Source: Arhodomonas aquaeolei DSM 8974
GTDB taxonomy: Bacteria; Pseudomonadota; Gammaproteobacteria; Nitrococcales; Nitrococcaceae
Assembly: GCF_000374645.1 (NCBI RefSeq)
Contig: NZ_KB894813.1
Coordinates: 1-64,000 of the forward strand
Direction: 5' to 3'
Length of the DNA: 64,000 nucleotides
Part shown: positions 14,444-27,824 of the stretch, one piece after another
Layout of the letters: each line of letters starts with the position of its first letter
Position numbering within the stretch: the stretch's first letter is position 1
Position numbers and translations under genes: made by a program
The notes under the pieces: generated by a model
What the model saw: only the letters and a program-made list of their open reading frames with translations
Databases searched by the model: none
Told to the model about the DNA's origin: nothing

Positions 14444-15196
14444 TCAGGCCGGCATTTCCACCCCGTCCGCGATGTAGGCGAGCGAGAGGGCGTTGCGCAG
14501 GGTGATGCGCCGGCCGTCCACGCCGATGATGCCCTCGCGCCCGAGCTGCGAGACGGTGCGGCTGACGGTCTCCAGGGTGATGTTCAGATAAGCCGCGATC
14601 TCCCGCCGCCCCATCGCCAGGCGCAGGCGCATGCCGTCGAAGCCGCGGCGGCAGCGGCGCTCGGCCATGTCCAGGAGGAACCCGGCAACGCGCTGCCGCG
14701 CCGAGCCCCGGCAGGCGCCGAGCAGGCGCTCCCTTGCCGTGCTGAGCTCCTCACGCAGCAGTCGGTTGACCGCCTGCCGGACGCGCGGATCCGCCGCCAT
14801 AGCCTCTTCCACGGTCTCCCACGGGAGCTCGCAGACGCGGCTGCGCTCGAGCGTCACCAGCCGCTCGTCCGGGGCCATGCGTTCACCGGCATCGAGCCCG
14901 ATCGGCTCGCCCGGCAGGGTGAAGCCGGCGATGACCTCCTCGCCGGTCGCCGTGTAGCGCGAGCGCTTGACCGCCCCGGAGCGCAACACCCCGAGGCAAC
15001 GTCCCGGCCGCCAGCGAAGCGCCTGACGCGCCGGCAGGGTCACGCGTTGGTGCACCATCGGGGTGTCCGGCTCGCCGACGGGATTGCGCAACCCCTCCGG
15101 GAAGCACACGCGGTAGAGGTCACAGTCGGTGCAGCCCTGCAGCACCGGTATTGTGTCCCCGCGGTCAAGGGCCTGTGACGGCGCGTCGGTCGACAT
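14444..15196 (-). CDS. FNR-type oxygen-sensing Crp-family regulator
   Basis: A 250-residue Crp/Fnr regulator with all four [4Fe-4S] ligands of E. coli FNR. The N-terminal Cys cluster is C22-x2-C25-x5-C31 with the same spacing, and C122 sits in RSRVCELP, matching FNR VCEIP. The cNMP-like domain spans ~45-160. The C-terminal winged helix holds the recognition helix LNITLETVSRT with the E-x2-SR core that reads TTGAT half-sites. It is therefore a true FNR homologue rather than a cysteine-less DNR/NNR. It is divergent from the DGC-domain gene and the nor cluster, and a candidate NsrR box lies in the shared promoter region. It would couple NO reductase expression to anoxia. Confidence 0.87.
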   Translation of the reverse strand: MSTDAPSQALDRGDTIPVLQGCTDCDLYRVCFPEGLRNPVGEPDTPMVHQRVTLPARQALRWRPGRCLGVLRSGAVKRSRYTATGEEVIAGFTLPGEPIGLDAGERMAPDERLVTLERSRVCELPWETVEEAMAADPRVRQAVNRLLREELSTARERLLGACRGSARQRVAGFLLDMAERRCRRGFDGMRLRLAMGRREIAAYLNITLETVSRTVSQLGREGIIGVDGRRITLRNALSLAYIADGVEMPA

Positions 15197-15220
15197 GGCT
15201 TACCCTCCTGATCGATCATT

Positions 15221-15243
15221 AACCTGCATTAAATATACATGTA
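15221..15243. promoter_or_regulatory. Candidate NsrR box between fnr-like and DGC genes
   Basis: An 11-1-11 imperfect palindrome (AACCTGCATTA-A-ATATACATGTA) matches 8 of 11 positions in each half of the NsrR consensus AAGATGYATTT-N-AAATRCATCTT. It lies 25 bp upstream of the fnr-like gene and 31 bp upstream of the DGC gene, where it could control both. Confidence 0.5.
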
Positions 15244-15273
15244 TTTTCCCGAGTGCAATAACAGGAGCCCGTC

Positions 15274-15675
15274 ATGACCGAGTCCCGACCGCTAGTCTAC
15301 GCCTGCTCCGGCTGCTCCAATGTCGCCCAGCTCGCAAACCGTGTCGCCGTGGCCATGGACCGCGACGGCCGCGCGGAGATGTCCTGCATTGCCGGTGTCG
15401 GCGGCGGTGTGCTCTCACTGGTGCGCCGGGCCCGCAGCGGCCGGCCCGTCATCGCCATCGACGGCTGCCCTCTGGCCTGTGTCCGCCACTGCCTCGAGGG
15501 CGTCGGCGTCACCGCCGACTACCACACGACGCTGACGGATCACGACCTGCGCAAGCGCTACCGCGAGGACTACGGCGAGGAGACGGTTGCCGAGGTACGC
15601 CAGCGCGTCGAGGCCGAGGCCACCGGCGCGGGCCTGTTCGCGCCAGCAACGGATGCCTCCGCGGTTCGCGGCTGA
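15274..15675 (+). CDS. DGC-domain putative zinc-binding protein
   Basis: A 133-residue small soluble protein of the DGC family, named for a conserved Asp-Gly-Cys. Cysteines occur as YACSGCSN near the N-terminus, MSCIAGVGGG in the middle and IDGCPLACVRHC after it, consistent with metal or cluster binding. DGC proteins often sit beside nitrogen-oxide or electron-transfer genes, but their biochemical role is not established. AGGAG lies 7 nt before the ATG. It is transcribed toward the nor operon and divergently from the fnr-like gene, with a candidate NsrR box in front, suggesting a role in NO response. Confidence 0.75.
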   Translation: MTESRPLVYACSGCSNVAQLANRVAVAMDRDGRAEMSCIAGVGGGVLSLVRRARSGRPVIAIDGCPLACVRHCLEGVGVTADYHTTLTDHDLRKRYREDYGEETVAEVRQRVEAEATGAGLFAPATDASAVRG

Positions 15676-15748
15676 CCCCGCGCAAGGCCGGCCGGGACAC
15701 CGCCCGTAACCGGGGCGCCCCGGCCGGGCCGAACGAAGCATCGTGGTC

Positions 15749-15796
15749 AACATGCATTCCAGGTGTTTCTTTTAAGATGTATCTATAGTACTTTTT
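15749..15796 (+). promoter_or_regulatory. Two tandem candidate NsrR boxes before norQ
   Basis: Site 1 (15749-15771, AACATGCATTC-C-AGGTGTTTCTT) and site 2 (15774-15796, AAGATGTATCT-A-TAGTACTTTTT) each have a left half matching 9 of 11 NsrR consensus positions and a weaker right half (7 of 11). Their centres are 25 bp apart. They end 24 bp before the norQ ATG in an otherwise geneless 145-bp spacer, a suitable position for repression of the nor operon. Confidence 0.5.
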
Positions 15797-15820
15797 AATC
15801 GGAACATAGGGGATTCAACC

Positions 15821-16630
15821 ATGCACATCGTCAGCGACACCGCCGAAACCGCCCCCGCCGGCAGCTTCTACCACGCCCTGGGTGACGAGGTCGCACTGTT
15901 CGGGCACGCCGCCGCCGAGCGCCTGCCGGTACTCATCAAGGGCCCCACGGGGTGCGGCAAGACACGGTTCGTTCAGCACATGGCGGAGCGTCTGGAGCGC
16001 CCGCTCTACACCGTCGCCTGCCACGACGACCTGACCGCCGGCGACCTCGTCGGCCGCCACCTGCTCGGCAGCGAGGGTACCTACTGGCAGGACGGTCCGC
16101 TGACCCGCGCGGTGCGCGAGGGCGGGATCTGCTACCTCGACGAGATCATCGAGGCGCGCAAGGACACCACCGTGGTGCTCCATCCCCTCGCCGATGACCG
16201 CCGGGTGCTGCCGCTGGACGCCACCGGCGAGCTGATCGAGGCCCACCCGGACTTCCTGCTGGTGGTCTCGTACAACCCCGGTTACCGCAACCTGATGAAG
16301 GGCCTGAAGCCGAGCACGCGGCAGCGCTTCGTGGCCCTGTCCTTCGGCTACCCCGACGCCGCCGCGGAGCGGCAGATCGTCGCCCGGGAAGCGGGGATCG
16401 ACACGGCACGGGCGGAGCAGCTCGTGCGCCTGGCCACGGACCTGCGACGCCTCGACGGTCACGACCTCGAGGAGGCCGCCTCCACCCGGCTGCTGGTCCA
16501 CGCGGCCCGGCTGATCGCCCGGGGCGTGGCACCGCTCGCGGCCTGCCGCGCCTGCCTGGCGGAGCCGCTGAGCGACGAGCCCGCCGCCCTGGAGGCGCTG
16601 ATGGATGTCGTCGGCGCCCACCTCGGCTGA
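15821..16630 (+). CDS. norQ: NorQ/CbbQ-type MoxR AAA+ ATPase
   Basis: A 269-residue AAA+ ATPase of the CbbQ/NirQ/NorQ group, which works with the VWA protein NorD to insert the non-haem iron into NO reductase. Walker A is GPTGCGKT (residues 41-48), Walker B is ICYLDEIIEA, and PGYRNLMKGLKPSTRQRF holds the sensor/arginine-finger region. AGGGGA precedes the ATG. It is first in the nor operon, 47 bp upstream of norC. Confidence 0.9.
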   Translation: MHIVSDTAETAPAGSFYHALGDEVALFGHAAAERLPVLIKGPTGCGKTRFVQHMAERLERPLYTVACHDDLTAGDLVGRHLLGSEGTYWQDGPLTRAVREGGICYLDEIIEARKDTTVVLHPLADDRRVLPLDATGELIEAHPDFLLVVSYNPGYRNLMKGLKPSTRQRFVALSFGYPDAAAERQIVAREAGIDTARAEQLVRLATDLRRLDGHDLEEAASTRLLVHAARLIARGVAPLAACRACLAEPLSDEPAALEALMDVVGAHLG

Positions 16631-16677
16631 CCCCGCGGACCGGAACACCGCTTTCTCAACCTTCAGGGGGACATTCG

Positions 16678-18562
<1,885 letters not shown>

Positions 18563-18576
18563 GGGAGGCCCGTGCC

Positions 18577-20412
18577 ATGGAAGAGGTCGTCGGTCTCGGC
18601 TGGCACCGGGTGATCACCCGCCTCGCGCGGCGGGACCACCCCGAGGCGGCGGTGGCGCTCGCCGACGAGCAGGCCCGGCTCGGGCTCGTGCTCCGTGCCC
18701 TCGGCGGCGACGCCGGCCTGCGCGTCACCGCCGCCACGCCGCGGGCGGTCCGGGCCCGCCGACGCTGGCTGGAGCGCGTGGCCGGCACCGGCCACCGCCA
18801 TCCGCTGGCATGGCGTGACGGCGAGCGGGTCTGCGTGCCCGAGCGCATCGCCTGCTTTCCGGACGCCGGGCGCAACCGCGACCTCTACCTCTGGCTGATA
18901 GCACTCGCCAGCCGCTCCGATCCCCACGGCGGGGACTGGTTCACCGGCAACCAGGCCGCGGTCCGGCGAACCCTTGCGGCCTTCCCCGGCCTGACACCGG
19001 TGTACCGGCGGCTGGTGGCGGCGACGCTCGCCGCGCGCCGCGATCCGGACCGGCTCGGCCGTGCGGAAGGGCGCCGCGAGGCCGCGATCCGCGCCGCACT
19101 GGAGGACCCCGGCAGCCGGACGGCGCTGCCGGCGGCGCGGGGCCAGCCGGAACCGGTCCCGGTCTGGCTCTACCCGGCTCCGGAAACCGGCACGGCCCCG
19201 ACGCCGGCGGAACGCGATGACGACGCCACGGAGACCACCGCCGGCACGCCGCCGCGGGGCCGGGGGCGCAAGGCCGCGGAGTACGTCGAGGACACGGACG
19301 GCCGCAGCGGGCTGATCGTCTTCCGGCTCGAGAGCCTGTTCTCGTGGTCGGAGTACGTCCCCGTGGACCGGACCGTGGACGACAGCGAGGACGAGGACGC
19401 CCCGCGGGTCGCCGAGGACCTGGACCGGCTCAGCCTCAGCCGCACCGGCACGGCGCCGGCCTCACGCCTGCGTCTGGATCTCGACCTTCCCGCTGCCGGC
19501 GACGACGACACGCCCCTCGGCGACGGCCGGCTGCTGCCGGAATGGGACTGGCGCCGGGGCGAGCTGCGCCCCCGGCACTGCCGGGTCGTGCCCCTGCTGC
19601 CGCGGGACGCCGCACCGATGGCCATTCCCACCCACCTTGCTGCCCCGGCCGCGCGGCTGCGGCGCCGCTTCGAGGCCCTGCGCCCCGAGCGTTACTGGCA
19701 GCGCCGCCAGGCCAGCGGCCGGGCCCTGGACCTGCCCGCGTGCATCGAGCACCGCACCGCCCGCCGCCGCGGCCGGGCCGACACGGCGCCACGCCTGTGG
19801 GCGGATCCGCGGGAGCAGCAGCGCGACCTGGCCTGCCTCGTGCTCGCGGACCTGTCGCTGTCCACCGAGGCCTGGGTGGACGACGACCACCAGGTGATCG
19901 AGGTGGTGCGCGACAGCCTGCACCTGCTCGGCGAGGCCCTGGACGCCGGCGGCGACCGCTTCGCCATGTACGGCTTCTCCTCGCGCCGGCGTTCCCACGT
20001 GCGCTTCAGCCTGCTCAAGAACTTCGCCGAGCCCTGGGGTGAGACCGCCCACGGCCGCATCCACGCGCTGCGCCCGGGCTACTACACCCGCATGGGCGCG
20101 GCGGTGCGCCAGGCCACCGAGATCCTCGCCGAGCAGCCGGCCTCCCAGCGCCTGCTGCTGCTGCTCACCGACGGCAAGCCCAACGACCTGGACGTCTACG
20201 AGGGGCGCTACGGGCTGGAGGACACGCGCCACGCCCTGCTGGAGGCGCGCCGCGCCGGCGTCACACCCTTCTGCGTGACCATCGACCAGGAGGCGGCGGA
20301 CTACCTGCCTTACCTCTTCGGCCAGCGCCACCACGCCCTGCTCCACCGGGCCCAGGCCCTGCCGGAGCTGCTGCCGCGGCTCTACCTGCTGCTCACGGAG
20401 GCGACGGCATGA
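18577..20412 (+). CDS. norD: NorD, VWA-domain NO reductase activation protein
   Basis: A 611-residue cytoplasmic protein with a C-terminal von Willebrand A domain (~residues 420-605). The MIDAS motif is LADLSLST (the usual DxSxS), with later LLTDGKPND. It acts with NorQ as a chelatase-like maturation factor for NOR. The middle (~200-290) is acidic and low-complexity. GGGGAGG lies upstream of the ATG, 14 bp after norB. The stop overlaps the norE start by ATGA. Confidence 0.9.
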   Translation: MEEVVGLGWHRVITRLARRDHPEAAVALADEQARLGLVLRALGGDAGLRVTAATPRAVRARRRWLERVAGTGHRHPLAWRDGERVCVPERIACFPDAGRNRDLYLWLIALASRSDPHGGDWFTGNQAAVRRTLAAFPGLTPVYRRLVAATLAARRDPDRLGRAEGRREAAIRAALEDPGSRTALPAARGQPEPVPVWLYPAPETGTAPTPAERDDDATETTAGTPPRGRGRKAAEYVEDTDGRSGLIVFRLESLFSWSEYVPVDRTVDDSEDEDAPRVAEDLDRLSLSRTGTAPASRLRLDLDLPAAGDDDTPLGDGRLLPEWDWRRGELRPRHCRVVPLLPRDAAPMAIPTHLAAPAARLRRRFEALRPERYWQRRQASGRALDLPACIEHRTARRRGRADTAPRLWADPREQQRDLACLVLADLSLSTEAWVDDDHQVIEVVRDSLHLLGEALDAGGDRFAMYGFSSRRRSHVRFSLLKNFAEPWGETAHGRIHALRPGYYTRMGAAVRQATEILAEQPASQRLLLLLTDGKPNDLDVYEGRYGLEDTRHALLEARRAGVTPFCVTIDQEAADYLPYLFGQRHHALLHRAQALPELLPRLYLLLTEATA

Positions 20413-20999
20413 GCGATGCAGCCGCTGACACCGCGCGCCCCGGCGCCTATGCCGTGCCGGGCGATCTGGCGATGTGGTGGTTCATCCTCGCCGAGCTCGC
20501 CGTGTTCGGCGCCCTGCTCGCCAGCCTGATCGTCGCCGGCGCGCTGGCTCCGGAGGTGTTCGCGGCCGGGCGTGCCGGACTGCACCCCGTCGCCGGCCTG
20601 GCCAACACCGTGATGCTGCTGACGGGCAGCTACCTCGTCGCCCGCGGCATCGACGCCGCCGCCGCGGAGGGCCCGCGCCGCTGCGCGCCGTGGTTCCTGG
20701 CCGCGACGCTGGCCGGCGCCGGCTACGTGGCCGTCAAGCTCGGTGAATACGCCGACCTCGCCGCCGCGGGATACAATCTGCGCACGAGCACCTTTCATTT
20801 CTTTTACTTCTTCACCACGGTGTTCCACCTTATGCACGTGGTGCTGGGCATGATCGTGCTGGCGGCAGTGGCCCGGCGGTGCCGGCGGGGCGATTACGAC
20901 GACGAGGGGCTCAGGGCCCCGGAGAGCGCGGCGAGCTACTGGCACATGGTGGATCTGGTATGGCTCGCGCTCTTCCCGCTGCTCTACGTGCTGCCATGA
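20409..20999 (+). CDS. norE: NorE, cytochrome c oxidase subunit III-like protein
   Basis: A 196-residue membrane protein with about five TM helices of the CoxIII family (WWFILAELAVFGALLA at the start, FHFFYFFTTVFHLMHVVLGM and AASYWHMVDLVWLALFPLLY later). NorE accompanies NorCB in many denitrifiers and supports full NOR activity, though the mechanism is not defined. The start overlaps the norD stop (ATGA) and its own stop overlaps norF, indicating translational coupling. Confidence 0.9.
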   Translation: MSDAAADTARPGAYAVPGDLAMWWFILAELAVFGALLASLIVAGALAPEVFAAGRAGLHPVAGLANTVMLLTGSYLVARGIDAAAAEGPRRCAPWFLAATLAGAGYVAVKLGEYADLAAAGYNLRTSTFHFFYFFTTVFHLMHVVLGMIVLAAVARRCRRGDYDDEGLRAPESAASYWHMVDLVWLALFPLLYVLP

Positions 21000-21247
21000 G
21001 CCGGGCCGAGACACTGTCGCAGCACTGGATCATGCTGCTCGCGCTGACCGTCGCCGCGGCACTGGCAGCCACGGTGGTGCCTGCCCCCTGGCTTACGCCG
21101 GCGGTGGCGGCGCTGACCGTGATCAAGGGGCGCACGGTGATCGACTCGTTCATGGGGCTGCGTGGCGCCTCGCCGCTGCTGCGCCACTCGGTCAGCGCCT
21201 GGCTCGCGGGGGTGGTCGCTCTGGGCGTGGTCATACGGCTGACATGA
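20996..21247 (+). CDS. norF: NorF-like / cytochrome c oxidase subunit IV family protein
   Basis: An 83-residue protein with three hydrophobic segments and the KGRTVIDSFMGLRGA loop typical of the small CoxIV-like NorF proteins. The ATG overlaps the norE stop (ATGA), and upstream in-frame codons lie inside norE and are rejected. NorF is a small accessory partner of NorE in NOR operons. It ends the nor operon. Confidence 0.82.
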   Translation: MSRAETLSQHWIMLLALTVAAALAATVVPAPWLTPAVAALTVIKGRTVIDSFMGLRGASPLLRHSVSAWLAGVVALGVVIRLT

Positions 21248-21262
21248 TGAATCACAAATAAC

Positions 21263-21278
21263 TACCTCTTTAGAGGTA
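21263..21278 (+). promoter_or_regulatory. Perfect palindromic operator candidate before nsrR
   Basis: TACCTC-TTTA-GAGGTA, a 6-4-6 inverted repeat, lies 15 bp after norF and 95 bp before nsrR. It resembles the canonical NsrR consensus only weakly, so it may be an autoregulatory site or the site of another factor. Confidence 0.45.
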
Positions 21279-21373
21279 TCTCATCGATGGTATGACTGTC
21301 CGTCGGACGGTACACTCAACACGATGCACACCGCGTCACCTCCGGGTAACGCGTCAGCGGAGGCTCCCAGCCC

Positions 21374-21838
21374 ATGCGATTGACCCTCTACACCGACTAC
21401 TGCCTGCGCGTGCTCATGTACCTCGGTGTCAAGGAAGACCGGTTCGCGACGATCAGCGAGATCGCCGAGCGCTACGACATCTCCCGTAACCACGTGATGA
21501 AGGTGGTCTACGGACTCAGCCAGTCGGACTACATCCGAACCGTTCGCGGCAAGAACGGCGGCATGTACCTCCAGCGCGCCCCGGAGAGCATCAACCTGGG
21601 GGCACTGATCCGCGACACGGAGCAGGATCTCGCCCTGGTGGAATGCTTCGCGCCGGACAACCGTTGCGTCATCACGCCGAGCTGTCGGCTGACCCACATC
21701 CTGGGCGACGCCCTCAAGGCCTTCTTCGCGGAACTGGACAAGCATACCCTCGCGGACCTGCTCACCACCCGGGACGACATGCGCGAGCTGCTCGGCATCC
21801 GCGGCATCCCCGTGGTCCAGGCGGCGAAGAGCGGCTGA
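21374..21838 (+). CDS. nsrR: NsrR-type nitric-oxide-sensing Rrf2 repressor
   Basis: A 154-residue Rrf2-family repressor. An N-terminal winged helix (MRLTLYTDYCLRVLMYLG, then ISEIAERYDISRNHVMKVV) precedes three Fe-S ligands C91, C98 and C104, the pattern of NsrR, whose cluster is destroyed by NO. GGAGG lies upstream of the ATG. It lies directly after the nor operon and is the likely repressor acting on the boxes at 15221-15243 and 15749-15796. Confidence 0.9.
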   Translation: MRLTLYTDYCLRVLMYLGVKEDRFATISEIAERYDISRNHVMKVVYGLSQSDYIRTVRGKNGGMYLQRAPESINLGALIRDTEQDLALVECFAPDNRCVITPSCRLTHILGDALKAFFAELDKHTLADLLTTRDDMRELLGIRGIPVVQAAKSG

Positions 21839-22445: not shown

Positions 22446-24326
22446 TCAGGCCGCGTCGCTGTCGGCGCTTTCGCCCAGAAGGAACAGCGGCGAGGTCAGG
22501 TCGCGCGGATCGGCGGCCCGGCGCGGATTCGCCGGGTAGAAGCAATCGCCGAGCCCGGGGCGACGGCGGAAGTGACGGGTGCGCTTGTAGGGCAGCTTCA
22601 TGAACCCGGCGATCCCGACGCCGCGGATCTGGTCCACCGCCTCGGCGATACGCTCCAGCAGCGCGGCGAACTCCGCCTCACGCTCGGGCGCCAGGAGCGT
22701 GTAGTAGCTGTGGATCTTCAGGTGCGTGGGCTTGCTCTCGAAGATCACGCAGCCCGTGTGGGGGATGTCGTTGAGCTCGACGATGGCATCGATGATCGGC
22801 TGCGGCAGGGCCAGGTACTCGTCCGGATCACGCCCGTCCTCGAAATAGGAATGCGGATGCAGCCGGGCATCCGCGCTCTCCGGCGGCACCACCTCGTAGG
22901 GAATGCGCAGGTCCGGCGGCACCTCGAAGGGCTCGCCCTCGCCGGCACGCTCGAGGTGCAGGGTGTGGCGGGCATCGAACATCACGCACTTGAACACGCC
23001 CTCGCGCTCCAGCGAGCGCGCCAGGGTTACCACCACGTTCACCGCCGCGGCGAAGGCACTCACCCGGTCCGGGTCGCGCAGTTCCAGGTAACTGTCGATC
23101 TCCAGGCCCTCGGGCTTCCAGCGGATGCCCAGCCCGCCCACCACCGGGTAGCGCGAGAGGCGGCTGACCGCGGCCATGAGCGCCTTCTCCCGGTCCCCCA
23201 TGCCGTGCATGAAGTTCTTGTAGTAGCGCTCGAGCTGGGCGTCGTCCGCGCCGGCCAGGGTGGCCTCCGCCACCTCCTCGCGCAGGAACGACTTGCGCGA
23301 GCTGTAGACCACGCTCTCCATGTCCTGCGCCGGCGCGACCTTGATCGGCAACAGGGTCATGGCCGGCCTGGCCGGGCGCGGCACGGCGACGATGCGCCCG
23401 AGGTGCGCCATCTCGCCGAGGAAGTAGTCGCCGGCACGGCGACGCTCGTCGGGGTCCCGGCTGAGCAGGCCGTCGAGCACCCGGGCGAAGGGCCGCGGCA
23501 GCCCCAGCGCGCGGGCGGGAATCACGTCACTGCCGAACCTACAGGACTGCGCCGAGGCCAGTGCGTACAGGGTACTCGCCACGCCCTGCTCGTCGAAGCG
23601 CGGGGAGGACAGGCCGCCGCCCAGCTGCTCCTCGCCGATGAAGTAGACGTCGCCAAGGCGGGCATTGGTCTCGCCACCGCCGGTCATCGCGTCCAGCGAG
23701 CAGAACGGCGTGGGCTGATCCTCGTGGTCCACCTGGGCGAACACCGACGAGCCCCAGTCGATCAGCGAGACGCGGCCGTCGTCGGGGTCGTAGACCAGAT
23801 TCGAGGGTTTGATGTCCCCGTGGACGATGGGCCCGCGGGGATGATGACGCAGGTAGGCTAGCATGTCCGCGAGCTGGCGGGCGATGTGCAGCAGCTCGTC
23901 CACGGGCAGCGGCCCCACCTGGATGGAGCGCTGATCCAGGTCCTCGCCGGGGGCACGCTCCATGACCAGGATGCGCTGGCCGTGGATGCGCTCGAAGGCG
24001 AGGAAGGCCGGGACGTTGGGGTGACGCACCTGCGAGAGCATGTACGCCTCCTCCTCGAGCCGGTCCTGGATGTGCTGGGCCAGGGTGATACGCGAGAACT
24101 TGAACACCTGGCTCGCGCCCTCGCTGCGCCGGCCGGCGAACACAAAGCTGTACGCGCCCTTGCCCAGGAGGCAGACCTGGCGGTAGCCGAGCCCGCGGAG
24201 CTGCTCCTCGCACAGCCGCACCCAGGCCTTGAGGCGGTGGGCCTCGTCCTTGCTGAGCAGATAGACCGACTGCTCTTCGGGGATGTAGAAGTGGCGGATC
24301 GACTCCGCCGTCGCCGCACGGGACAT
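22446..24326 (-). CDS. Hanks-type Ser/Thr protein kinase with novel C-terminal half
   Basis: A 626-residue predicted cytoplasmic kinase. All catalytic features are visible: glycine loop LGKGAYSFVF (54-63), VAIK-type lysine K76, alpha-C glutamate near E91-E93, catalytic loop H169-G-D171-I-K173-P-S-N176, and D190-W-G in place of DFG. The HGD and DWG variants are common in bacterial RIO/APH-like or lipopolysaccharide-type kinases. Residues ~330-626 form a second region I do not recognise (starting near YYKNFMHGMGD), with no TM helix or PASTA repeats. The ATG starts 13 bp after the E2 stop, so it belongs to the dehydrogenase operon and may regulate that complex. Confidence 0.82.
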   Translation of the reverse strand: MSRAATAESIRHFYIPEEQSVYLLSKDEAHRLKAWVRLCEEQLRGLGYRQVCLLGKGAYSFVFAGRRSEGASQVFKFSRITLAQHIQDRLEEEAYMLSQVRHPNVPAFLAFERIHGQRILVMERAPGEDLDQRSIQVGPLPVDELLHIARQLADMLAYLRHHPRGPIVHGDIKPSNLVYDPDDGRVSLIDWGSSVFAQVDHEDQPTPFCSLDAMTGGGETNARLGDVYFIGEEQLGGGLSSPRFDEQGVASTLYALASAQSCRFGSDVIPARALGLPRPFARVLDGLLSRDPDERRRAGDYFLGEMAHLGRIVAVPRPARPAMTLLPIKVAPAQDMESVVYSSRKSFLREEVAEATLAGADDAQLERYYKNFMHGMGDREKALMAAVSRLSRYPVVGGLGIRWKPEGLEIDSYLELRDPDRVSAFAAAVNVVVTLARSLEREGVFKCVMFDARHTLHLERAGEGEPFEVPPDLRIPYEVVPPESADARLHPHSYFEDGRDPDEYLALPQPIIDAIVELNDIPHTGCVIFESKPTHLKIHSYYTLLAPEREAEFAALLERIAEAVDQIRGVGIAGFMKLPYKRTRHFRRRPGLGDCFYPANPRRAADPRDLTSPLFLLGESADSDAA

Positions 24327-24339
24327 CGCCCCGCCCCCG

Positions 24340-25653
24340 TCAGCCCGCCTCTGCGAGCATCAGCGCCGGCTGTTCCAGCAGTCGTTTCCAGTGATTACTG
24401 AACCGCGCCATGGTCGCCCCGTCAATCACGCGATGATCGGCGGACCAGGAGATCGGCATGATCCGGCGGGCGACCACGCAGTCCTCCGCGTCGAAGCGCG
24501 GCAGCCGCTGGGTGGCCCCCAGGGCGACGATGGCGAGTTCCGGCTTGTTGATGATTGGGGTGGCCACCGTGCCGCCGATCGCCCCGATGTTGGAGATGGT
24601 GATGGTCCCGCCCTTCATGTCCTCGGCGGCCACACGTCCGGCCCGCGCCGCCTCGACCAGCTCGTTCAGGGCCTTGGCGGTGGCGAGCAGCGACAGCGAC
24701 TCCACCCCCTTGATGTTCGGGACGACCAGCCCGTGGGCGGCATCTACGGCCACACCGATGTTGTGCCGGCGGTGGTAATGGATCTCCTCGTGCTCGTCGT
24801 CGAAGGTCGCGTTGAGCTGCGGAAAGGCGCGCAGGGTGAGGGACAGCGCCTTGACGAAGAACGGCATCAGGGTGATGCGCACCTCCTCGCGGTAGTGATC
24901 GCGGATCTCCGCATACACCTCGGTCAGGGCGGTGACGTCCACCTCGTCGGCGTAGGTGTAGTGCGGGATGGTCCGCGCCGACGCACTCATCTGCCGGGCC
25001 ATCGCCGCACGCACGCCCTTGAGGGGCTCGCGGCGGATCACCTCGTCGCCGCCGCCCGTGGCGGCGCCCGACGATGCCGAAGCCGGAGCCGCCGCCTCCG
25101 CTCCCTTCGCCGGCGCCGTTCCGGCCTCGGCAAAGGCACGCACGTCCTCCTTGTAGACCCGCCCCTTCTTGCCCGAACCAGGCACGGCATGGACGTCCAC
25201 CCCGAGCTCCCGGGCCAGGCGCCGCACTGCCGGGCTCGCCGGCACCCGTCCGGCGGGCCCGGCGGACCGCCCGTTGCCGTCCCCGGCCGCCGCCGGGGAT
25301 ACCGCCTCGCCACCGGAGGCCGGTTCCGCGGGCGGTGCCGGCGACCGGTCACTGTCCGTCGCCGGCGCCGTAGCGGCATTACCGCCGCCAGGCTCGGCGG
25401 CGTCACCGTCCTCGCCGGCGACCTCGATGGCGAACAGCGGCTCGTGCACCCGCGCGATCTCGCCCTTGGCGTAGTAGCGCTTCACCACCCGGCCGGTCTC
25501 CATGGCCGGGATCTGCACAAGGGCCTTGTCCGTCATCACGTCGCAGACGGGCTGGTCCTCCTCGACGTTATCGCCCTCCTCGACCAGCCATTCGGAGAGC
25601 TCGCACTCGACAATGCCTTCGCCGATATCCGGCAGGATGAAGTCCTTGATCAT
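24340..25653 (-). CDS. bkdB: Branched-chain 2-oxoacid dehydrogenase E2 (dihydrolipoyl acyltransferase)
   Basis: A 437-residue E2 core subunit. Order: one lipoyl domain (1-80, lipoyl-lysine K43 in MTDKALVQI), a Pro/Ala/Gly-rich linker (~90-145), a peripheral-subunit-binding domain (~148-185, [14 protein letters not shown]) and the catalytic domain with H407-R-V-I-D411-G. It transfers the acyl group from lipoamide to CoA. The E1 context and GIVECEL in the lipoyl domain favour the branched-chain enzyme over pyruvate or 2-oxoglutarate forms. It follows E1 beta after 9 bp. Confidence 0.9.
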
Positions 25654-25662
25654 GGTGGTGCC

Positions 25663-26640
25663 CTAGAAGTTCACGGTCTGCTCGATCGCGGCGAGCGTCT
25701 TGAGGTGGTCCGGCATGTACTCCCGCTCGTGGGCCAGCGGGAACGGCGTGTCCAGGCCCGTGACCCGGCAGATCGGTGATTCCAGGTAGAGGAAGCAGCG
25801 CTCCTGGACCGTGGCGGAGAGCTCGGCGCCGAAGCCGGCGGTGCGCGGCGCCTCGTGGTTGATCACCAGCCGCCCGGTCTTGAGCACGGAGCGCGTCACG
25901 GTCTCCACGTCCCAGGGCAGCAGCGTGCGCAGGTCGATGACCTCACAGTCGATGCCCTTCTCCGCGGCCATCTCCGCGGCACGGGTCACCACCTCCACCT
26001 GCGCCCCCCAGGCGAGCACCGTGACGTCGCCGCCCTCGCGCAGCACCTCCGCGCGCCCGAGCTCGGCGGTGTAGTCCTCCTCCGGGACATCGCCCACCGC
26101 CGCGCGGTAGAGGCGCTTGGGCTCGAAGAACAGCACCGGGTCCGGATCACGGATGCTCGCCAGCAGCAGCCCCTTGGCGTTCTCCGGGGTGCTCGGCACC
26201 ACCACCTTGAGGCCCGGCGTGTGGCAGAAGTAGGCCTCCGGGGACTGGGAATGGTAGTGCCCGCCGGAGATGCCGCCACCGTAGGGGCTGCGGATGGTGA
26301 GCCCGCCGACGTTGAACTCGTTGCCCGAGCGGTACCGGAACTTGGCCGTCTCGTTCACGATCTGGTCGAAGGCCGGGAAGATGTAGTCGGCAAACTGGAT
26401 CTCCGCCACCGCCCGGAAGCCGGCGGCGGCGAGGCCGTTGGCGAAGCCGATGATGCCCTGCTCCACCAGCGGCGTGTTGAAGCAGCGCTCGTTGCCATAG
26501 CGGTCGCGCAGGTGACTGGTCGCGCGGAAGACGCCGCCGAACTGGCCGACGTCCTCGCCAAAGCAGATCACCCGCTCGTCCGCCGCCATGGCGGTGTCCA
26601 GGGCACTGTTGAGGGCCTGCAGAAGATTCATCCTTGCCAT
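25663..26640 (-). CDS. bkdA2: Branched-chain 2-oxoacid dehydrogenase E1 beta subunit
   Basis: A 325-residue E1 beta chain. The N-terminal [15 protein letters not shown] and central [18 protein letters not shown] segments are typical of BCKDH/PDH E1 beta. With E1 alpha it forms the TPP-dependent alpha2beta2 decarboxylase. The ATG overlaps the E1 alpha stop (TGATG), with GGGGCGG upstream, indicating coupled translation; a GTG one codon upstream and an ATG at 26631 are alternatives. Confidence 0.92.
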
Positions 26641-27824
26641 CACTCGATCCGCCCCGCCGTCTTCGGATAGGCGTCCGGGTTCGCCCGCACCTGCTCACGC
26701 AACGCCTCGTACTGCTCGGTGAGGTTCCAGGGCGGTGCGGCGTAGACATCCTCGATCAGGCGTGCAAGCGACGGCGCCGGCTTGGCCTCGGCGGTCTTCA
26801 TCGCGGCAAGGATCTCGTCGCGGTACCCCTGGCGCAGGGCCTCGTCGCGCTCCGCGTCCCACCAGCCCTGCGCCTCCATGAACGCGCGGATGCGTGCGAT
26901 CGGATCGAAGCGCTGCCAGGCCTCCTCCTCCTTGCGGCTGCGGTAGCCGGAGGGGTCGTCGGAGGTGGAGTGGGCACCGAGGCGGTAGGTCATCGCCTCG
27001 ATGAGCACGGGCACGCCCTCGCTCACCGCCTGGCGCCGCGCCTCCTGCGTCGCGAGGTAGACGGCGAGGAAGTCGTTTCCGTCGACGCGGATGGAGCGCA
27101 CCCCATAGCCGACGCCGCGGGCGGCGACGCCGTCGCCGGCGTACTGCTCGCTCACCGGGGTGGAGATCGCATAGCCGTTGTTGCGGCAGAAGAAGATCAC
27201 CGGGCAGCGGATCACCGCCGCCATGTTCAGCGCGGCGTGGAAATCCCCCTCCGAGGCCGCGCCCTCACCGAAGTAGCAGATGCTGCAGCGCCCCTCGCCG
27301 GCGAGCTTCTGGCCGTAGGCGTAGCCCGCGGCCTGGGGGATCTGGGTCGCCAGCGGCGAGGAGACGGTCATGTACGACAGCGCGCGGCTGCCGTAGTGGA
27401 CCGGCATCTGCCGGCCCTTGCCGAGGTCGTCCTCGGTGGCAAAGAGCTGGTCCATGAACTGCGCCGCGGTGAAGCCGCGGTAGCGCAGCGCGCCCTGCTC
27501 GCGGTACTGGGGCAGAATCATGTCGTCCGGTTCGAGCCCGGCCGCACTGCCCACCGTGGCGGCCTCCTCGCCGGTGGCGGTGAGGTAGAACGACAGCCGG
27601 CCCTGACGCTGTGCTGCGACCATGCGTTCGTCGAGCAGCCGCGTAAACACCGCGGCGTCGTGCATCGCGAGCACGATCTCCTTCGCCACACCCGAGGGGT
27701 CGGCGCCTTCGTAGGGCCTGCCATCCTCGCCGAGCATCCCGTAGATCGGGATGGTCAGCGCGGACTCGGTAATGAAATCCGGGGTATGGATGCGCGGGGC
27801 ATCCACTGAAGACGGCGCATACAT
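26640..27824 (-). CDS. bkdA1: Branched-chain 2-oxoacid dehydrogenase E1 alpha subunit
   Basis: A 394-residue TPP-dependent E1 alpha chain. The TPP/Mg motif runs from G186-E-G188 through EGD to NN at 215-216 in CRNNGYAIS. The loop at 283-296 contains [12 protein letters not shown], matching the phosphorylation loop of mitochondrial BCKDH E1 alpha, with the regulated serine equivalent present near S286. The ATG at 27824 has a strong AGGAGGGGAG site; the 24-codon extension is rejected. It is first in the E1a-E1b-E2-kinase operon. No E3 gene is nearby, so lipoamide dehydrogenase must come from elsewhere. Confidence 0.92.

Follow-up and report, generated by a model that had tools for sequence, protein, structure and literature searches.

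A Hanks-type kinase encoded with a branched-chain 2-oxoacid dehydrogenase in Arhodomonas aquaeolei is a likely dedicated regulator of the complex

The genome of Arhodomonas aquaeolei DSM 8974 (assembly GCF_000374645.1) encodes, in a single operon, the E1alpha, E1beta and E2 subunits of a putative branched-chain 2-oxoacid dehydrogenase (BCKDH) complex, the bkd genes, together with a Hanks-type Ser/Thr kinase. The operon lies in the window analysed here, the 64,000 nucleotides from position 1 to position 64,000 of contig NZ_KB894813.1. All four genes are on the minus strand, and the coordinates below are those of the window.

26640..27824, minus strand: E1alpha, 394 aa, mitochondrial-type BCKDH E1alpha by sequence (PF00676)
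25663..26643, minus strand: E1beta, 326 aa (PF02779, Transket_pyr; PF02780, Transketolase_C)
24340..25653, minus strand: E2 dihydrolipoyl acyltransferase, 437 aa (PF00364, PF02817, PF00198)
22446..24326, minus strand: Hanks-type Ser/Thr kinase, 626 aa, with a kinase domain (residues ~47-310), a linker and a conserved C-terminal domain (~336-606) (PF00069)
22503..23348, minus strand: C-terminal domain of the kinase, residues 327-608, two helix-strand-strand-helix-strand-strand units; candidate docking or sensing part

The genes are arranged head to tail in the order E1alpha-E1beta-E2-kinase, with the kinase as the final gene of the operon. E1alpha and E1beta overlap by 4 bp, E1beta and E2 are separated by 9 bp, and the kinase gene (24326-22446) begins 13 bp past E2 (25653-24340), exactly as stated in the original prediction, which had been made from the sequence alone. 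The ATG of E1alpha is preceded by a purine-rich stretch resembling a ribosome-binding site. Pfam assigns E1_dh to E1alpha, Transket_pyr and Transketolase_C to E1beta, and Biotin_lipoyl, E3_binding and 2-oxoacid_dh to E2, the last of which comprises one lipoyl domain, an E3-binding domain and a catalytic domain. In NCBIfam, no model scored above its own cut-off for E1alpha, E1beta, E2 or the kinase. Many Halomonas and Marinobacter relatives have two lipoyl matches in E2, compared with the one in the window.

The kinase matches the Pkinase family (PF00069) with 70.8 bits, against a Pfam cut-off of 31.7, and harbours all of the catalytic Lys, Glu, Asp, Asn and Asp-x-Gly residues of the Hanks kinases. 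Residues K76, E93, D171, N176, D190 and G192 are invariant in all 74 kinases compared, the window copy included, and the four of these that had been named beforehand (K76, D171, N176 and D190) are all as claimed. The motifs HGD and DWG are present instead of HRD and DFG. In an AlphaFold model of the whole kinase (27 sequences, mean predicted local distance difference test (pLDDT) 74), the kinase domain is closest to that of M. tuberculosis PknB (VIA; Z 19.6, root-mean-square deviation (rmsd) 3.1, 241 residues), with many kinases tied within 1. This alignment, coupled with the absence of GHKL and BCDHK families among the Pfam matches up to E = 1, agrees with the proposal of a Hanks fold rather than a GHKL one. 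Judged by its predicted fold and catalytic residues, the protein is an active-type Hanks kinase and, by sequence, it is not homologous to the mitochondrial BCKDK. Hydropathy indicates no transmembrane stretch (maximum 19-residue mean 1.4). An alternative is that the enzyme serves the complex as a small-molecule kinase, acting on a cofactor or substrate, or as some other transferase, and is not a protein kinase. The APH phosphotransferase family is also above its cut-off (35.2 versus 23.2 bits), in 27 of 27 members, and the HGD and DWG motifs would fit such an enzyme. However, the protein-kinase model is far ahead in Pfam and the fold is best aligned with PknB, leaving this alternative very improbable.

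The C-terminal ~300 residues of the kinase, described as unrecognised in the original prediction, gave no convincing match in either sequence or fold. The window copy of this domain is without a match in Pfam, a sequence search of the PDB returned none up to E = 1, and Foldseek with the domain model returned none at E <= 0.001. The best VIA alignment reached Z 3.9 (rmsd 4.4, 82 residues), a value that excludes nothing; the fold comparisons used the undivided domain and did not extend to the viral fold library. The domain is therefore unrecognised, which falls short of proof of a new fold. DUF4417 was considered as its family and is regarded as unproven, with matches in 4 of 42 members (best E 4e-4) and in 2 of 27 in another set. 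When modelled alone (residues 327-608, 42 sequences), the domain has a pLDDT of 79.7. An hhalign comparison aligns its two halves with a probability of 43% (E 2.4e-4, for one comparison only), and the domain is apparently built as a repeat of two units. Mean pairwise identity is 0.69 for the C-terminal domain (336-606) and 0.73 for the kinase domain, a measure by which the constraint on the two is about equal. Among 349 genomes drawn from the phylum, a set that overlaps the genome samples described below, 25 have the C-terminal domain, every time at the site of a kinase already found and in an open frame no shorter than 603 aa.

Relatives of the kinase are encoded by at least 571 stretches of GTDB species genomes, of 593 candidates, although these stretches are possibly not all from separate species. 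Gene neighbourhood was compared in the best 80, most of them from different species, a choice that leans towards close relatives, such that the genome samples below provide the fairer count. An E2 gene lies upstream of the kinase, on its own strand, in 73 of these 80 loci; 64 of them have it no more than 300 bp away, and in nine the distance is 860 to 7,496 bp. The other seven, all Shewanella, have no bkd gene in the fetched flank. Proximity of the kinase gene to bkd genes in relatives had been set as a test of the original prediction, and the 64 loci with E2 within 300 bp speak in its favour. A plasmid collection contained no relative of the kinase at E <= 1e-30. Plasmid pSbal01 of Shewanella baltica OS155 (L151) carries bkd genes among the chromosome-like neighbours astE, nadA, gap, seqA and pgm.

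Co-occurrence was assessed in four samples of genomes: a class draw (369 genomes), the order of genome G416 (194), the order of genome G399 (187) and the nearest kin (59). The genomes were searched first for the kinase and afterwards for E1alpha; only full-length kinase matches were counted as members of this kinase family, and in the class draw E1alpha was counted at an identity of at least 57%. The class draw and the nearest kin each contain four genomes with the kinase and four with E1alpha, in both cases the identical four. The order of G416 has 23 genomes with the kinase, 24 with E1alpha and 23 with both, and that of G399 has 35, 35 and 34, respectively (Fisher test, kinship ignored, p 6e-29 and 5e-35). 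Pooled without double counting, the kinase is present in 62 genomes, the partner-type E1alpha in 63 and both in 61. Among the sampled families, the two are jointly present or absent in f1, f2, f174 and f223, with f197 discordant. At looser thresholds, the kinase search of the nearest kin (E <= 0.001) gave other kinase matches, these being partial, in 20 further genomes, and the E1alpha search (E <= 1e-40) gave weaker matches of 31-37% identity in 12 kinase-less genomes. The exceptions to joint presence are G703, with the kinase and no E1alpha (93% complete, 450 contigs), and two genomes with E1alpha and no kinase, G772 (80% complete) and G557 (97% complete, its entire 14-kb contig being kinase-free). 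In G557, the best-assembled exception (L128:5952-10690), inspection by eye places a leucine dehydrogenase-like gene after E2 and an Lrp-like regulator upstream.

Of the 61 genomes that have both, 40 have the kinase and E1alpha genes on one strand and no more than 10 kb apart. The two genes are unlinked in the other 21, being on one contig at distances of 69 kb to 2.0 Mb in seven and on different contigs in 14. For each of these 21 genomes, the DNA upstream of the kinase gene was read over 3.5 to 10.7 kb and contains no E1alpha, E1beta or E2. The stretch read was shortest in G658 (3.5 kb), had a length of ~5 kb in five genomes, of 7.4 and 8.9 kb in G778 and G668, respectively, and of ~10 kb or more in the remainder. 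Because these genomes keep both genes unlinked, the partnership between the kinase and BCKDH is independent of linkage. It has to be considered that the kinase gene is a passive passenger of the bkd operon, co-inherited without function, since tight linkage in 40 genomes could drive co-transfer. Such passive inheritance is scarcely to be expected, given that both genes are retained where they are unlinked and that the kinase and C-terminal domains are both strongly conserved. The synteny and the co-occurrence, the latter also where linkage is lost, thus uphold the dedicated partnership that had been proposed. On these grounds, the likely role of the kinase is dedicated regulation of the co-encoded BCKDH complex.

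The partner of this putative regulator is a particular type of E1alpha. The best solved match of the window E1alpha is human BCKDHA (1dtw), at 413.6 bits compared with 234 bits for P. putida BkdA1 (1qs0), and for the E1alpha of G614, which is unlinked from its own kinase, the corresponding scores are 391 and 219.5 bits. In the two of the 20 distant-type E1alphas that were compared in this way, over their matched stretch, the order is reversed, with P. putida ahead (652 versus 235 and 414 versus 225 bits). The 84 kinase-linked-type E1alphas form one group in a tree, with a support of 99. These bit scores and the tree group together indicate that, in the sampled genomes, the kinase goes with the mitochondrial-type E1alpha. 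By sequence the partner E1alpha is of this type, nearer to animal BCKDHA than to P. putida BkdA1, and branched-chain 2-oxoacids would be the substrates of the partner enzyme. None of the 20 genomes whose only strong E1alpha is of the distant type (<=46% identity, E <= 1e-60) has the kinase; G596, which does have it, encodes E1alphas of both types. In the alignment with human BCKDHA, S286 of the window E1alpha corresponds to Ser292 and S296 to Ser302, which we take to be the second human phosphosite (chain numbering counted by hand). A passage of PMC8872256 states that human BCKDK phosphorylates Ser292 of E1alpha and that this inhibits E1alpha.

A dedicated regulator of this kind would dock on the complex via its C-terminal domain and phosphorylate one of the subunits. 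E1alpha would be the most probable target, at S286 or S296 close to the active-site loop. Phosphorylation would inhibit the complex and lower the flux from branched-chain amino acids when these are to be spared, and the inhibition would be relieved by a phosphatase or by reversal. The kinase would in this way probably switch BCKDH off and on, a job that is done in human mitochondria by an unrelated kinase.

A number of points weigh against this proposal. That a subunit is phosphorylated, at which site and with what effect are all matters of inference. The co-occurrence statistics take no account of phylogeny and, because G557 has E1alpha and no kinase, the complex can evidently dispense with the kinase. 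The PP2C_2 phosphatase (PF13672) was not found in the A. aquaeolei genome, other phosphatase families not having been searched, and an AceK-like reversal is for this reason a possibility rather than a finding. The E1alpha loop ([12 protein letters not shown]) had been put forward as the equivalent of the one phosphorylated in mitochondria. The correspondence of S286 to human Ser292 stands, but as a pointer to phosphorylation the loop fails: the position of S286 is serine in 82 of 82 kinase-linked E1alphas, and it is also serine in 16 and threonine in three of 19 distant-type E1alphas from kinase-less genomes. As the site-1 serine is nearly as frequent without the kinase, loop conservation was ruled out as evidence of phosphorylation; by sequence, the loop renders the hypothesis possible and gives it no support. 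These counts exclude L128 and L129, for which no kinase was found, from the kinase-linked set, and L125, the twentieth distant-type sequence, which was set aside as it derives from G596. At the position of S296, serine occurs in 76 of 82 kinase-linked versus 2 of 19 distant-type E1alphas, the six kinase-linked sequences that lack it having A (two), L (three) or T (one). This enrichment may merely mirror ancestry. Furthermore, no site unique to the kinase-linked subunits stood out among columns that are S or T in at least 95% of rows (82 E1alpha, 77 E1beta and 81 E2, the distant type being compared for E1alpha only), and consequently the sequence does not tell which subunit is the target. The kinase-less G557 differs at two S/T columns, E1beta 99 and E2 321.

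The lack of such a site, together with the separation of the kinase gene from the bkd genes in 21 of the 61 genomes, would also be expected if the kinase served branched-chain amino acid catabolism through another target, such as a transcription factor or a downstream enzyme, with its place in the operon for co-expression only. However, the kinase tracks one E1alpha type only and is missing from all 20 distant-type genomes, a pattern more readily expected of a physical partner than of a role across the whole pathway, and control through another target is accordingly judged unlikely.

Regulation of 2-oxoacid dehydrogenases by dedicated kinases is textbook knowledge for mitochondria, and bacterial BCKDH is usually described as transcriptionally controlled. 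Among bacterial kinases, AceK, an isocitrate dehydrogenase (IDH) kinase/phosphatase, is operon-encoded and PknG has its kinase domain flanked by rubredoxin and TPR domains. In common with the mitochondrial BCKDK/BDK (GHKL), the kinase described here would be dedicated to BCKDH; its partner E1alpha is of the mitochondrial type and has a serine at each of the two human phosphosite positions, phosphorylation being putative in this case. Unlike BCKDK/PDK, it has no GHKL, BCDHK or PDK family match (Pfam, E up to 1), and it combines the Hanks fold with a private domain. It resembles AceK as an operon-encoded bacterial kinase that would serve one central dehydrogenase but differs in its putative target and in having no AceK Pfam family up to E = 1. 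With the PknB-type Hanks kinases it shares the kinase fold, although it lacks a transmembrane stretch by hydropathy and a PASTA match in Pfam. The abstracts of the respective articles describe AceK as a regulator of IDH (PMC6591243), and PknG as a Ser/Thr kinase that controls a 2-oxoacid dehydrogenase complex through OdhI in Actinobacteria (PMC9769921). The PknG-OdhI/GarA system is thus similar in that a Ser/Thr kinase controls a 2-oxoacid dehydrogenase complex, as is proposed here, whereas PknG works via the inhibitor OdhI and the present kinase has no TPR or rubredoxin Pfam match up to E = 1. By sequence and fold, the kinase is outside the BCKDK/PDK, AceK and PknG families; by analogy, it probably works in a similar manner. 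No report of this kinase was found among the titles and abstract openings listed in searches of the open-licence PMC literature, nor is it mentioned in the passages covered of a survey of prokaryotic kinases (PMC1262709).

If the kinase does regulate BCKDH, the phosphorylation of BCKDH could be studied in a tractable bacterial model, on the type of enzyme nearest to that of humans, and the case would be one of convergent control, with a new domain that might serve to recognise the complex. A broader proposal is that the mitochondrial-type BCKDH has been provided with two independent dedicated kinases, the GHKL one in mitochondria and a gammaproteobacterial one of Hanks fold with a new docking domain, which would act on the same E1alpha loop and have converged for the sparing of branched-chain amino acids. 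This is put forward tentatively, as an idea that we lean somewhat against.

Trees were compared for the two partners. The kinase tree (n=74) comprises 65 script-called open reading frames from the 80 loci, less one of 3 aa that was dropped, nine others and the window copy, and the E1alpha tree (n=84) comprises sequences from 68 of the 80 loci and 16 others. Three f2 genomes are sister to Marinobacter in the E1alpha tree (support 84) and, in the kinase tree, are located inside a 23-row group (support 96) with Marinobacter, Litchfieldella and H. salinarum, the order within which is not resolved. These are quick trees with long branches, the longest being that of the window kinase, whose placement is unsure. 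The trees are compatible with a transfer in which the kinase and bkd cassette moved as one piece.

Two other Hanks-kinase matches occur in the A. aquaeolei genome (G000:C26:17849-19420 and C10:105874-106317), in frames of 1423 and 1684 aa. Elsewhere in the window, positions 14444-21838 hold what appears by eye to be a nitric oxide reductase-like cluster (norC, norB, NorQ- and NorD-like genes and a Crp/Fnr-type regulator), the end of which is formed by an Rrf2-family regulator that was checked in Pfam.

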